Shown in pieces: positions 27,809 through 56,963 of a DNA stretch of 64,000 bases (position 1 is its first letter; every line of letters begins with the position of its first letter). The DNA is from Ferroplasma acidiphilum. Lineage in GTDB: Archaea > Thermoplasmatota > Thermoplasmata > Thermoplasmatales > Thermoplasmataceae. The notes beneath the pieces were generated by a model. That model saw nothing but the letters and a program-made list of their open reading frames with translations. It was not told the DNA's origin and did not search any database. The DNA lies in the NCBI RefSeq assembly GCF_002078355.1, contig NZ_CP015363.1, positions 372,001 to 436,000 of the forward strand. Direction: 5' to 3'. Both the position numbers and the translations under genes were made by a program.

Positions 27809-28354
27809 TTATAATTTTTCCTCTTTATAAAAAAATGCGCTTTCCACATCTGAAATAACAGCATCATAATTACTTTTGTTTTTTTCAATATAATTGTAAA
27901 CATCCGTATGGAATGGTAACCAGTATTTTTCAATATATTCTGGATTTACTGACTGGATAAATTTATTTTTCACCCTATAGATACTATCGGTAACTTCTGA
28001 ATTAACGGTTTCAGGACTCTTCCAGTACCCTTTCAAATAAGAATTAATGACCGTTTCTATTATGTCTACAATGTTTTTCTTTGTAACCTCTTCCGCATTA
28101 TGGGTCTCTAAGGAATACCTGGTTAATAATTCATTATATTTATCATAATCAATTTCCGGGAAAAAAACATTGAATGAATTTTCAAGCAATTTTATTTCCC
28201 TGAATTCATCCTGTTTCATATTATAATTATGCCGGGATGTGTATGTAATTATTAGATTTTTTACTTTCAGTTCACCCAGATATGTGATCAGGTCTTCATA
28301 TCCATATCCAATGGTATTTTCATGCATTTTGCCTAGAGTAGAAATTATTATCAT
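27809..28354 (-). CDS. Hypothetical protein
   Basis: 181 residues, soluble, Asn/Tyr/Lys-rich. It starts MIIISTLGKMHENTIGYGYE and contains KVKNLIITYTSRHNYN, which suggests a Rossmann-like alpha/beta beginning; the remainder is helical (EEVTKKNIVDIIETVINSYL). No motif I can name. A TATA-like GTTTTAAATG lies about 26 bp before the ATG. Neighbouring genes give no functional clue. Confidence 0.62.
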   Translation of the reverse strand: MIIISTLGKMHENTIGYGYEDLITYLGELKVKNLIITYTSRHNYNMKQDEFREIKLLENSFNVFFPEIDYDKYNELLTRYSLETHNAEEVTKKNIVDIIETVINSYLKGYWKSPETVNSEVTDSIYRVKNKFIQSVNPEYIEKYWLPFHTDVYNYIEKNKSNYDAVISDVESAFFYKEEKL

Positions 28355-28809
28355 AGTTATATGTATTTCATGGTTGCATTTAAAACTAATTTAAATTGGC
28401 CATATGTAAATAATAGGTAGCTGAAAATTTATCTATACGGGTTAGATGAATACCGGGCAACAATTACATTCAAGATACGGTATACAGCAGTGGAAAAAAG
28501 ATATTGCAATTCAGAAAGTTTAGAAAGTAAATACAACACATTACAGTAGATGTTTTCTAAAGTCTCCTATAAAAGGCTACAGGTATAGAATGTACCCTGA
28601 TTCTACTGGCAATTATATAATACAATTGCTCTACGTTCTAGATTTACCGAAACACCGGTTAATGGGGGTATACCTCAATAAAAAGGGGAAGTATGGAATA
28701 AAATTCCCTGCTGCATTTATGGAAATTCTGTATCTTTTATCATTAAAAATTATTCATATGGATGAAAGATAAGTATTTATACATTTAATTATTGTTATAA
28801 TTGATAAAT
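28355..28809. other. Intergenic, 455 bp
   Basis: Long AT-rich gap before the rubrerythrin-like gene. A 60-codon frame at 28590-28772 is open but has no recognisable domain or good initiation context, so I do not call it. TATA box TATTTATAC near 28774-28782 probably drives the downstream gene. Confidence 0.4.
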
Positions 28810-29367
28810 ATGTCAGTGTTAGGAAAAAATACAGAGGCCGGGTTAAAAGAACTTTTAACAGCCAACGCAGAGGACCATATGAGACTGAATGCCGCATCGA
28901 ACTACTTTGAAAAAATAGGTGATCTGGAAACAGCCAGAGAATTGAAAGACAAAGCCAATGTAGAACTGGGGCATTTCAATGCAATATTCGCTACACTTGT
29001 AAAATATGAAGGGCTCAAAGGTCTGGTAAACGACATGGCAAAGGAAGAAACTGAACAGCATGTATCAGAATATACAAACGTTGCCAATGCTGCAAAGGCT
29101 GAAGGGCATGATGACATTGAAGCAATGTTATGTGCATTCTCCGAGCAGGAAAAAGGCATAGCTGAAACCCTTAACAGAGCCGGAATGAAGAAAATAATAT
29201 CCGACATGGCAAAGGAAGAAACTGAACAGCATGTATCAGAATATACAAACGTTGCCAATGCTGCAAAGGCTGAAGGGCATGATGACATTGAAGCAATGTT
29301 ATGTGCATTCTCCGAGCAGGAAAAAGGCATAGCTGAAACTTTGAAAAGAACAAGAAATGCCTTTTAA
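28810..29367 (+). CDS. Rubrerythrin-like protein with internal tandem duplication
   Basis: 185 residues from ATG 28810 (a TTG at 28801 is in frame). The first helix pair (8-65) has ferritin-like AEDHMRLNAASNYFEKIGD and ExxH in NVELGHFNAI. The second helix pair (about 75-120, EETEQHVSEYTNVANAAKAE then SEQEKGIAET) occurs twice, identical over 46 codons. In both copies the final ExxH is EKGI, with the His missing. There is no rubredoxin domain. Standard rubrerythrins detoxify peroxide at a di-iron site; whether this protein can build one is doubtful. The gene sits beside an insertion sequence. Confidence 0.75.
   Translation: MSVLGKNTEAGLKELLTANAEDHMRLNAASNYFEKIGDLETARELKDKANVELGHFNAIFATLVKYEGLKGLVNDMAKEETEQHVSEYTNVANAAKAEGHDDIEAMLCAFSEQEKGIAETLNRAGMKKIISDMAKEETEQHVSEYTNVANAAKAEGHDDIEAMLCAFSEQEKGIAETLKRTRNAF
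29031..29339 (+). repeat. Perfect 138-bp direct repeat inside the rubrerythrin-like gene
   Basis: Bases 29031-29168 and 29202-29339 are identical, offset 171 bp (57 codons), so the frame is kept. The 33-bp spacer and the outer flanks are only distantly similar. The absence of any silent difference points to a recent duplication or to gene conversion. Confidence 0.9.
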
Positions 29368-29398
29368 GCATTTTTTATTAATCTAGTGTGTTGCATAA

Positions 29399-30322
29399 TT
29401 AATAGGCATGTGTCATCTCCCTCATAATATTGTAATTAACTACCTTAAGAGCTAATTCCTGTATAATATACTCTATTTTCTTAGCTTTAATAACCTCTGT
29501 CATTACTCTTTTTAATCCTGAAAAATATATTTCCACAATCCATCTTTTGCCATAGCTATTATTCTCCTTCCACTGTTCCATGGAATTCTTTTTAATATAT
29601 CTCACAATCTTAGCCCTTGCAGATGAACCTCTGGATTTGGTAGAAGCATTCTTCCTGGGTGGTATTACTGCATTATATCCGAACATATTATAGATATACT
29701 TTGAATCGTATCCCTTATCCCCAAATATTCTTAGAATATTATTTTTCATCTTACTCAATAGTTTTCTAGCAGCCTTAGAGTCATGTGTATGCTCATCTGT
29801 TATAGTGAATGATAATACAGTAACATCTTTTAATGATATTATTACATGTAATTTTATCCATCCCTTCCTTTTCTTATGCCATTTATGGCCTAAATAATCT
29901 CCCCTTATTGTTATCTTATATCCAGTAGAATCTATAATGCAATCCAGCTTACTGTTAGTATTATTTATTTCAGGCTTGATTCTCCTTATCCTCCTGAATA
30001 TTTCACTGTATGATATTGATTTTATTCCGGTTATAATTGCTAAGGACCTTAGCATGCCTTCAAGTGACCTGAACGGTATATTGAATATAGATCGCAATCT
30101 TGCTAAATACATTATCAATGCATCAGGCACTTTGTATGGATGGCCTATTTTACCATTATTCTTTTCCTCCAATAAAGTATCATAATCTTTAATGAATGAT
30201 AAATCTGTAAGGTATTGTATTCTATCTACAAGTGATTCATTATACTTTTCCCATCTCCTGTTCGAGCCGATCCAGTACCTTTTTATACTTCTATTTATTT
30301 TATTATTGATTTGTGGTGTCAA
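29399..30322 (-). CDS. Transposase, IS5-like DDE family
   Basis: 307 residues. DDE residues can be placed in CIIDSTGYKI (D), RIFGDKGYDSKYIY (D) and KRWIVEIYFSGLKRVM (E, in the YREK-like context of IS4/IS5 enzymes). The helical N-terminus ends in VPDALIMYLARLRSIFNIPFRSL. Start is a TTG (30320-30322); there is no ATG before residue 85. A TATA box inside a palindrome 27 bp upstream makes a leaderless TTG start credible. The frame is intact, so the element may be active. Confidence 0.88.
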   Translation of the reverse strand: MTPQINNKINRSIKRYWIGSNRRWEKYNESLVDRIQYLTDLSFIKDYDTLLEEKNNGKIGHPYKVPDALIMYLARLRSIFNIPFRSLEGMLRSLAIITGIKSISYSEIFRRIRRIKPEINNTNSKLDCIIDSTGYKITIRGDYLGHKWHKKRKGWIKLHVIISLKDVTVLSFTITDEHTHDSKAARKLLSKMKNNILRIFGDKGYDSKYIYNMFGYNAVIPPRKNASTKSRGSSARAKIVRYIKKNSMEQWKENNSYGKRWIVEIYFSGLKRVMTEVIKAKKIEYIIQELALKVVNYNIMREMTHAY

Positions 30323-30331
30323 AGCAAATCG

Positions 30332-30355
30332 CCCCTATATTTCACTATATAGGGG
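30332..30355 (-). promoter_or_regulatory. Palindrome over the transposase TATA box
   Basis: CCCCTATAT (30332-30340) and ATATAGGGG (30347-30355) form a perfect 9-bp inverted repeat with a 6-base centre. The minus-strand TATATAG (30346-30352) falls in it, 27 bp before the transposase TTG. It could be an operator for self-repression, or a hairpin that limits expression from read-through transcripts. Confidence 0.6.
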
Positions 30356-30426
30356 TTTACCTTTTAAGTTTTAAATTTATTATGGGATAATTATTAAATT
30401 AGAATGAATTATGCAACACACTATTA

Positions 30427-30852
30427 TTAATCAATATCTTTTTTTATAATATGGATAAAGTTTGTTGATTTTTTCATCTCTTTTATAAATTCCATTGTGC
30501 TTTCATTGATACTATTGTCCAGTGATTCCATATCAAAATATTTGAGCTTCAACGCATCCGATCCAGCCTGTTCTATCCCTTTTACAGGCCTGCATTTATA
30601 ATCCAGGATAACATAATGAAAATCCTTTCTAATTATCTCTGAGATACCCAGAAGGCTTTCTACTTCAACAGTTAACCCGGTTTCTTCAAGCATTTCCCTT
30701 TTTAGCCCCTCTTCAATAGTTTCATTTAATTCCAGCTTTCCACCCGGTATTGCCCATTTGTACCTGTCAGGTTCGTCCCTCCTTTTTCCCAGCAGTATCT
30801 TATTTTCAAGTGTTATTACTCCGCCAACAGCAACTTTCGGATACGTTTTCAT
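30427..30852 (-). CDS. Nudix hydrolase
   Basis: 141 residues. Complete Nudix box GKLELNETIEEGLKREMLEE plus TGL (about 38-60: Gx5Ex7REUxEExGU), preceded by ILLGKRRDEPDRYKWAIPGG, which resembles the ADP-ribose pyrophosphatase/MutT branch. It hydrolyses a nucleoside diphosphate linked to another group; substrate not determined. It follows the amino acid permease by 26 bp and may be cotranscribed. The IS right end lies 5 bp after its stop. Confidence 0.88.
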   Translation of the reverse strand: MKTYPKVAVGGVITLENKILLGKRRDEPDRYKWAIPGGKLELNETIEEGLKREMLEETGLTVEVESLLGISEIIRKDFHYVILDYKCRPVKGIEQAGSDALKLKYFDMESLDNSINESTMEFIKEMKKSTNFIHIIKKDID

Positions 30853-55139: not shown

Positions 55140-56963
55140 GTGGATTACGTACCGGATACATCAGTAATAGTAAGCGGAAAATTCAGGGAATATGTAGCAG
55201 GAAAGAACGATGTAAGGGTTATACTTGCAGAGGCTATGATAGCTGAAATAGAGCACCAGGCAAATGAGGGGAGGTCAATAGGCTTCACAGCCCTTGAAGA
55301 GCTTAAGAAATTAAGGGAATTATCAGATTCAGGCAAAATTTACATAGATATCATGGGAAACCGCCCCATGGAATGGCAGATAAAAAATGCCCATAGTGGC
55401 GAAATTGACAATATAATTAGAAATATAGCACTGGACAATGCAGCTACACTTGTAACTGGAGACCACATACAGAGCATTATAGCATCTATAAAGGGAATAA
55501 ATGTTATTTATATTAAAGGCGAGGAGAAAGATGCAAGGGACATCCAGGAATTTTTTGATGAATACACATCATCGGTCCATTTAAAAGCCGGGATGAAGCC
55601 ACTTATAAAAACAGGCAAGCCTGGAGAAGTGGTATTAAAAGAACTGGACTATGTAGTATCAAACGATGAGCTTGAAAGAATAGCATATAACATTGTCCAG
55701 AGAGGCAAATTTGAAGACCAGTCCTTTATAGAAATGGATATGTTCGGAGCAACAGTTATCCAGCTGAAGAATCTCCGTATTGTCATAACAAGGCCACCGT
55801 TCTCAGATATAATGGAGATTACAGCAGTAAGGCCTGTTGTAAAAACCTCCATAGAGGATTATAAACTTGATAAAAGAGTGATGGACAGGCTTCAAAACAA
55901 GGCATATGGAATACTGGTTGCAGGTTCACCAGGAGCCGGGAAAAGTACATTTGTTACAGCACTGGCAGAATATTATGCCTCCCAGAACAAAATTGTCAAA
56001 ACCATGGAAAAACCAAGGGATTTGCAGGTAAATGATAGCATAACACAGTATACAACGCTGGAAGGCGATATGGAAAAAACCGGAGATATACTTCTTCTTG
56101 TCAGGGAGGACTATACCGTATTTGATGAAATGCGTGTCACTTCAGATTTCAAGGTTTATTCAGACCTCAGGCTTGCCGGTGTTGGCATGGTTGGTGTTGT
56201 GCATTCTACCAGAGCTGTGGACGCTATCCAGAGATTTGTAGGCAGAATAGAACTCGGATTAATCCCCCAGGTGGTGGACACTGTCCTGTTTATAGACGGA
56301 GGGAAAGTATCGCAGGTACTTACAACAGATTACCAGATTAAAATACCATATGGGCTTAATCAGGAAGACCTTGCAAGGCCGGTAATAGTTATACGTGATT
56401 TTCTAAAAAACAAGCCTGTAAGTGAAATATATACATTCGGCGACCAGGTAGTTGTAATTCCTGTAGGTGACGAGAAAAACGGTGCAAATCCATTATTTGC
56501 CATTGCCGCAGCAAAAATAAGGGAAGATATGATGAAACTTCTTGAAACAGATCATGTGGATGTGCAGATCGTTTCAGAGGGAAGGGTTATAATAAAAGTT
56601 CCCGATGCAAAGATACCGAGATTAATTGGAAGAAAAGGCGAAACAGTTACTGCACTGGAAAAATCCTACGGGCTTAAGATAGATGTGGATACACTATCAG
56701 ATGATGTAAATGTAATGCAGGATGCTTTAATTGAAATAAAGAACAAAACAATATTCATTGACGTGGGCTCAAGGAACAGGCCGGTAAAATTATATGTTGA
56801 TGGCATTGCAATGCTTTCAGCCCGCAGTTCAGCCAAGGGAATGATAAAACTCAGGATAAATAGTGATACAGGAAATACGGTATATAAATACATAAAGCAG
56901 GGGAAGAAACTTCAGTATATGGTAATGGAGGAATCTGAACCATCATCTTCACATTCCAGATAA
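55140..56963 (+). CDS. PIN domain-ATPase-KH protein (PINA-like)
   Basis: 607 residues. N-terminal PIN fold (YVPDTSVIVSGKF with the first acidic residue, EIEHQANEG, LVTGDH), a PilT/VirB11-like RecA ATPase with Walker A VAGSPGAGKSTF (about 261-272) and a C-terminal KH domain (RLIGRKGETVTAL, about 500). This matches PINA, a hexameric ATPase in Sulfolobus reported to act with Holliday-junction enzymes. GTG start; TATA ATTTAAATAAT centred 26 bp upstream indicates a leaderless GTG message. Confidence 0.85.
   Translation: MDYVPDTSVIVSGKFREYVAGKNDVRVILAEAMIAEIEHQANEGRSIGFTALEELKKLRELSDSGKIYIDIMGNRPMEWQIKNAHSGEIDNIIRNIALDNAATLVTGDHIQSIIASIKGINVIYIKGEEKDARDIQEFFDEYTSSVHLKAGMKPLIKTGKPGEVVLKELDYVVSNDELERIAYNIVQRGKFEDQSFIEMDMFGATVIQLKNLRIVITRPPFSDIMEITAVRPVVKTSIEDYKLDKRVMDRLQNKAYGILVAGSPGAGKSTFVTALAEYYASQNKIVKTMEKPRDLQVNDSITQYTTLEGDMEKTGDILLLVREDYTVFDEMRVTSDFKVYSDLRLAGVGMVGVVHSTRAVDAIQRFVGRIELGLIPQVVDTVLFIDGGKVSQVLTTDYQIKIPYGLNQEDLARPVIVIRDFLKNKPVSEIYTFGDQVVVIPVGDEKNGANPLFAIAAAKIREDMMKLLETDHVDVQIVSEGRVIIKVPDAKIPRLIGRKGETVTALEKSYGLKIDVDTLSDDVNVMQDALIEIKNKTIFIDVGSRNRPVKLYVDGIAMLSARSSAKGMIKLRINSDTGNTVYKYIKQGKKLQYMVMEESEPSSSHSR

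Follow-up and report, generated by a model that had tools for sequence, protein, structure and literature searches.

The rubrerythrin-like gene of Ferroplasma acidiphilum Y encodes two tandem copies of a helical hairpin, and comparison with its orthologues indicates that these copies result from an old duplication of the CD hairpin that has been homogenised by recombination (concerted evolution), not from a recent duplication. The window, i.e. the whole 64,000-nt stretch of DNA that was analysed, covers bases 372001–436000 of the one-contig genome (1,826,943 bp) of this strain. The gene occupies positions 28810–29367 of the window on the plus strand and codes for 185 amino acids counted from its ATG at 28810, with an in-frame TTG 9 nt upstream; orthologues are found in the genus. 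According to the structure model and the multiple alignment, codons 1–66 (28810–29007) form helices A and B, including an ELGH motif. They are followed by two units of 57 codons each (29008–29178, helices C and D; 29179–29349, helices C′ and D′) and by the unique tail TRNAF with the stop codon (29350–29367), as delimited by the unit alignment.

Repeat comparison confirmed the exact in-frame doubling with diverged flanks that had been noticed in the sequence-only reading: positions 29031–29168 are identical to 29202–29339 (138 nt), with a start-to-start distance of 171 nt (57 codons). The earlier view that one helix pair is doubled within a rubrerythrin-like protein was also supported, with the correction that the full unit comprises helix C plus helix D, codons 67–123 in unit 1 and 124–180 in unit 2. 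Unit 1 reads EGLKGLVND, core, AETLNR and unit 2 reads AGMKKIISD, core, AETLKR, so that the units differ in the first nine and the last three to four codons and identity is confined to the middle. In the 64-kb window, which served as the background for how often such repeats occur, the 138-nt pair is the sole direct repeat of at least 60 nt; its TRF score is 618, whereas the next array in the window scores 50.

A divergent neighbour gene at 27809–28354 (181 aa, without a Pfam match) adjoins the repeat gene also in Ferroplasma acidarmanus fer1 and in the metagenome-assembled genome (MAG) G006. Upstream of the repeat gene, some 350 nt (28393–28743) are shared with fer1 at 99% identity but have no counterpart in the remaining Ferroplasma loci that were compared; part of this stretch has weak matches (68%) at three places in fer1.

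Evolution of the unit cores and unit starts

Each unit was partitioned into a start (nt 1–27), a core (nt 28–159) and an end (nt 160–171). Within-genome core differences were zero in all seven multi-copy Ferroplasma genomes (0/132 in the five two-copy genomes and 0/117–132 in the two genomes with gaps), whereas 1–23 of up to 132 core nucleotides differed between genomes; for the five two-copy genomes, the comparison is 0 differences within against 3–23/132 between. In the four nearest species (the window, G003, G005 and G006), the core differences were all silent (3–15), with no amino acid changes. Unit starts, on the other hand, differ at 11–16 of 27 nt inside one genome, yet from species to species, Acidiplasma included, they are conserved according to the position of the copy. 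The two starts of the window (29008–29034, EGLKGLVND, and 29179–29205, AGMKKIISD) differ at 14/27 nt; neither is homogenised, and each groups with the starts of the corresponding unit of other species.

Altogether, 33 core sites were variable among genomes, and at these sites copies of the same genome agreed in 225 of 225 comparisons; for the unit starts, copies of the same genome agreed in just 33 of 114. Among the 120 possible pairings of first and second copies from the five two-copy genomes, only the true pairing gave 0 differences, the next best giving 6. The tree of starts groups the units by copy position (support 0.996), with the second unit of Acidiplasma among the second units, which places the duplication before the split of Ferroplasma and Acidiplasma. 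The tree of cores groups them by genome; together, the two trees indicate that homogenisation of the cores has gone on in each lineage after that split. Under independent evolution since the deepest Ferroplasma split, the probability of 0/132 differences would be ∼ 1e-11 per genome, a rough independent-sites estimate. The two readable units of Acidiplasma form a mosaic in which the first 55 readable nt are identical and the next 61 core nt carry 21 differences. All three signs of concerted evolution were thus found: similarity is greater within than between genomes, the duplication predates the species and copy number has changed through recombination inside the repeat.

The sequence-only reading had offered two origins for the identical copies. 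One, a tandem duplication that arose in F. acidiphilum too recently to have diverged, would agree with the 138 identical nucleotides in the window and with the single copy in the closest strain, fer1. It is contradicted by the starts, which have diverged within the window while the starts of unit 2 resemble one another throughout Ferroplasma and Acidiplasma, by the same two-copy layout in four other Ferroplasma species and by the position of fer1 inside an otherwise multi-copy clade (see below), and we consider it very unlikely. The other, copies kept identical by gene conversion, holds as far as homogenisation is concerned, as conversion and repeated unequal crossing-over give the same pattern here. 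Orthologues with two copies and many silent differences, which that reading had named as the mark of an old, stable architecture, are seen when species are compared but not within any of the Ferroplasma genomes.

Alternatively, the copies could be kept identical without recombination by constraint on the nucleotides themselves, such as codon bias or a regulatory or RNA element. In line with this, most comparisons show a somewhat slower divergence of third positions in the core than in the AB part. Such constraint, however, cannot make two copies change in step, as they do at every variable core site, and no Rfam family matched at the repeat, so that this explanation is hardly credible.

Copy number and the adjacent insertion sequence

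The gene was found in nine of the ten genomes of the genus Ferroplasma and was not found in the tenth, G001, which is 80% complete. Two copies of the unit are present in the window and in G002, G003, G005 and G006, at least three in G004 and G007, both with an N gap inside the array, and one in fer1 and in MAG G008, where it could reflect assembly collapse; several of the relatives are short-read MAGs, and a count taken from a short-read assembly should be read as a minimum. In Acidiplasma (G041), two or more copies are present, in pieces. In genus g19, G042 has one copy and the contigs of G026 end inside the gene, the two ends overlapping by 42 nt. No relative of the protein was found in the viral contigs searched. 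In four genomes other than that of the window (Acidiplasma G041, G026, G004 and G007; loci L010, L011, L013, L015, L022 and L019), the assemblies break or are N-gapped exactly inside the repeat. Public copy numbers of the gene are therefore under-counted, and short-read assemblies of the Ferroplasma group miscount or break at it.

Repeats as long as this one upset short-read assemblies, as these breaks and gaps illustrate, and a single real copy might have been expanded by misassembly in strain Y. The second copy, however, has a start sequence of its own that is seen independently in other assemblies, including the one-contig G005, which makes such an artefact extremely improbable. Typical 454 Titanium reads are long enough to cross the 309-bp repeat region. 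The assembly of strain Y combined 454 FLX Ti, Illumina and fosmid-end data with repeat finishing (PMC5473848), which also argues against misassembly.

The fer1 strain shares 98.7% average nucleotide identity (ANI) with F. acidiphilum Y (PMC5473848). Its single unit consists of the unit-1 start of the window, the core with one silent change and the unit-2 end, and this composition is exactly what a single crossover or deletion between the cores should produce. Whenever crossing-over takes place in the core, the first start still opens the array and the last end still closes it, so that the starts stay distinct. In the tree of the AB part, fer1 pairs with the window inside a clade that is otherwise multi-copy, and G008 groups with G003, G005 and G006; judging by this placement, both have probably come to their single copy secondarily, on two separate occasions. 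The core of G008 (L021) differs from those of G005 and G006 (L003, L004) at 3–4 of 44 third positions and its AB part at 20 of 66, hinting at core exchange between species or at a chimeric MAG.

An insertion sequence (29384–30423, minus strand) with a DDE transposase ORF (29399–30322) and 20-nt terminal inverted repeats is situated 17 nt downstream of the stop codon of the repeat gene and is flanked by a 9-bp target duplication, TTATTAATC (29375–29383 and 30424–30432). This proximity speaks for the earlier suggestion that the element might have caused the duplication or might maintain it. The proposed link was nevertheless refuted: fer1 is uninterrupted at the insertion point and thus has an empty target site, no insertion was found at this site in those two-copy relatives whose downstream flank could be aligned, and no transposase relative was detectable in the two-copy genome G006. 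The probability of such a role is negligible. The element, which has about a dozen relatives elsewhere in the F. acidiphilum genome, is a later, unrelated insertion that stands outside the mechanism.

Protein family, di-iron ligands and structure models

Pfam, NCBIfam and PDB sequence searches with the protein returned sub-threshold matches alone: the score for PF02915 was 14.1 bits (gathering cut-off 22.8), that for the NCBIfam rubrerythrin model was 20.8 (cut-off 200) and no PDB sequence matched below E = 0.05. The profile of the family, however, reaches Thermoplasmata rubrerythrins (G216, G228) over residues 1–115 with E = 0.002. The only above-threshold rubrerythrin domain of the genome lies in a separate 331-aa frame at about position 55,763 (L052). 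The repeat is unmentioned in the searched text of papers on the Ferroplasma genome, oxidative stress and proteome.

Helix B carries ELGH and both D helices carry EKGI, as had been claimed from the sequence. The missing His of helix D is real, but it is not the whole story, being one of three lost ligand positions. E52, H55, E80 and E114 are kept, whereas the helix A Glu is replaced by N19, the second helix C Glu by Q83 and the helix D His by I117; these assignments were taken from the multiple alignment because a simple pairwise comparison with genuine rubrerythrins was unreliable in the second half, and the correspondence of EKGI with EKxH is read ignoring a 7-residue gap that this alignment has in helix D after E114-K115. 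The two ExxH motifs of a four-helix di-iron site are not both present, and there is no C-terminal rubredoxin domain, the protein ending after the last helix. Because three classical ligand positions are lost, we do not call the protein a rubrerythrin with a normal di-iron site; it is a rubrerythrin relative that is specific to the lineage, lacks rubredoxin and has a degenerate set of di-iron ligands. Helices A and C contain invariant acidic and His residues (AEDH, EExEQHxxEY), so that a different metal site is possible.

The AF2 model of the single-copy form (pLDDT 91.5) has a ferritin-like fold of the rubrerythrin branch, with two hairpins in the rubrerythrin/sulerythrin topology. Its PDB matches are led by sulerythrin and Burkholderia pseudomallei rubrerythrin (TM 0.70–0.76), whereas Desulfovibrio vulgaris rubrerythrin gave TM 0.44 and an rmsd of 16, which suggests a hairpin-exchanged topology for the modelled single-copy form. 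Sulerythrin is a domain-swapped dimer (PMC12833474). The 185-aa two-copy model is less certain (pLDDT 73, with residues 102–119 below 50); rubrerythrins once more lead its fold matches, at weak E-values. In this model AB and C′D′ score well, the first CD hairpin is the uncertain part, and helices D and C′ are modelled as one continuous helix (102–154).

Proposed mechanism and known systems

Taken as a whole, we regard as probable an explanation that combines a lineage-specific protein, an old CD duplication, homogenisation by recombination, drifting copy number and hairpins that alter assembly. The protein is built of an AB hairpin with one or several CD hairpins behind it, and CD was duplicated before Ferroplasma and Acidiplasma parted. 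Recombination between repeats has since kept the middle ∼ 132 nt identical in each Ferroplasma genome, presumably through gene conversion, through unequal crossing-over that expands and contracts the array, or through both; the edges, free of recombination, have retained their position-specific sequences, and copy number drifts between one, two and at least three among close relatives. The most parsimonious view of the protein is that AB can pair with any CD hairpin, of its own chain or of another. Additional CD hairpins would then serve as further pairing partners in a domain-swapped, hairpin-exchange assembly, altering oligomerisation and adding no second catalytic di-iron site. The likeness of the single-copy model to domain-swapped sulerythrin suggests that a change in subunit assembly is the most likely effect of the extra hairpins.

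The extra hairpin might instead be functionally neutral, a repeat maintained by recombination on a flexible scaffold that leaves assembly and activity unchanged. The one-copy alleles of fer1, G008 and genus g19, the variation in copy number and the uncertainty of the model in the first CD hairpin are compatible with this idea. The strong purifying selection on the core protein (no amino acid changes against 3–15 silent ones in four species) and the conservation of position-specific unit starts across species argue against it, and we find it possible but clearly the less probable reading. It is also conceivable, though rather unlikely, that hairpin copy number is a selected and rapidly reversible setting, whereby recombination would yield a mixture of one-, two- and three-hairpin forms within a population, each length giving a different domain-swapped assembly and thereby tuning metal storage or handling.

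Short, cytosolic and archaeal, the gene is a compact natural example of concerted evolution within a single gene, and it also shows how a hairpin-exchange fold can be enlarged by adding half-domains. With perfect within-genome identity of a 132-nt stretch in seven genomes (as far as readable), sharp boundaries, and one- and two-copy alleles in strains at 98.7% ANI, recombination between short repeats and its effect on a protein become directly testable in archaea.

Like sulerythrin of Sulfolobus tokodaii and other rubredoxin-less, domain-swapped rubrerythrins, the single-copy form is a four-helix AB + CD chain without a rubredoxin domain and with ExxH in helix B, and these proteins provide its best fold match (TM up to 0.76, with 0.75 for domain-swapped sulerythrin). 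Sequence identity, however, is about 19%, the window protein lacks the helix D His and two other classical ligand positions, and the number of CD hairpins in the family ranges from one to three or more. With classical rubrerythrins (PF02915), it shares the N-terminal start pattern and the order of hairpins but differs in its sub-gathering score, the absence of a rubredoxin domain and its degenerate ligands. Its closest parallel in evolutionary behaviour is with intragenic repeats under concerted evolution, which show the same greater likeness within genomes than between species, variable copy number and mosaic boundaries; unlike those known repeats, this one resides in a small archaeal ferritin-like protein and has sharp, non-homogenised edges. 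In one survey, repeats usually diverged from each other faster than from their orthologues (PMC5120217), and the Ferroplasma repeat shows the reverse of this trend.
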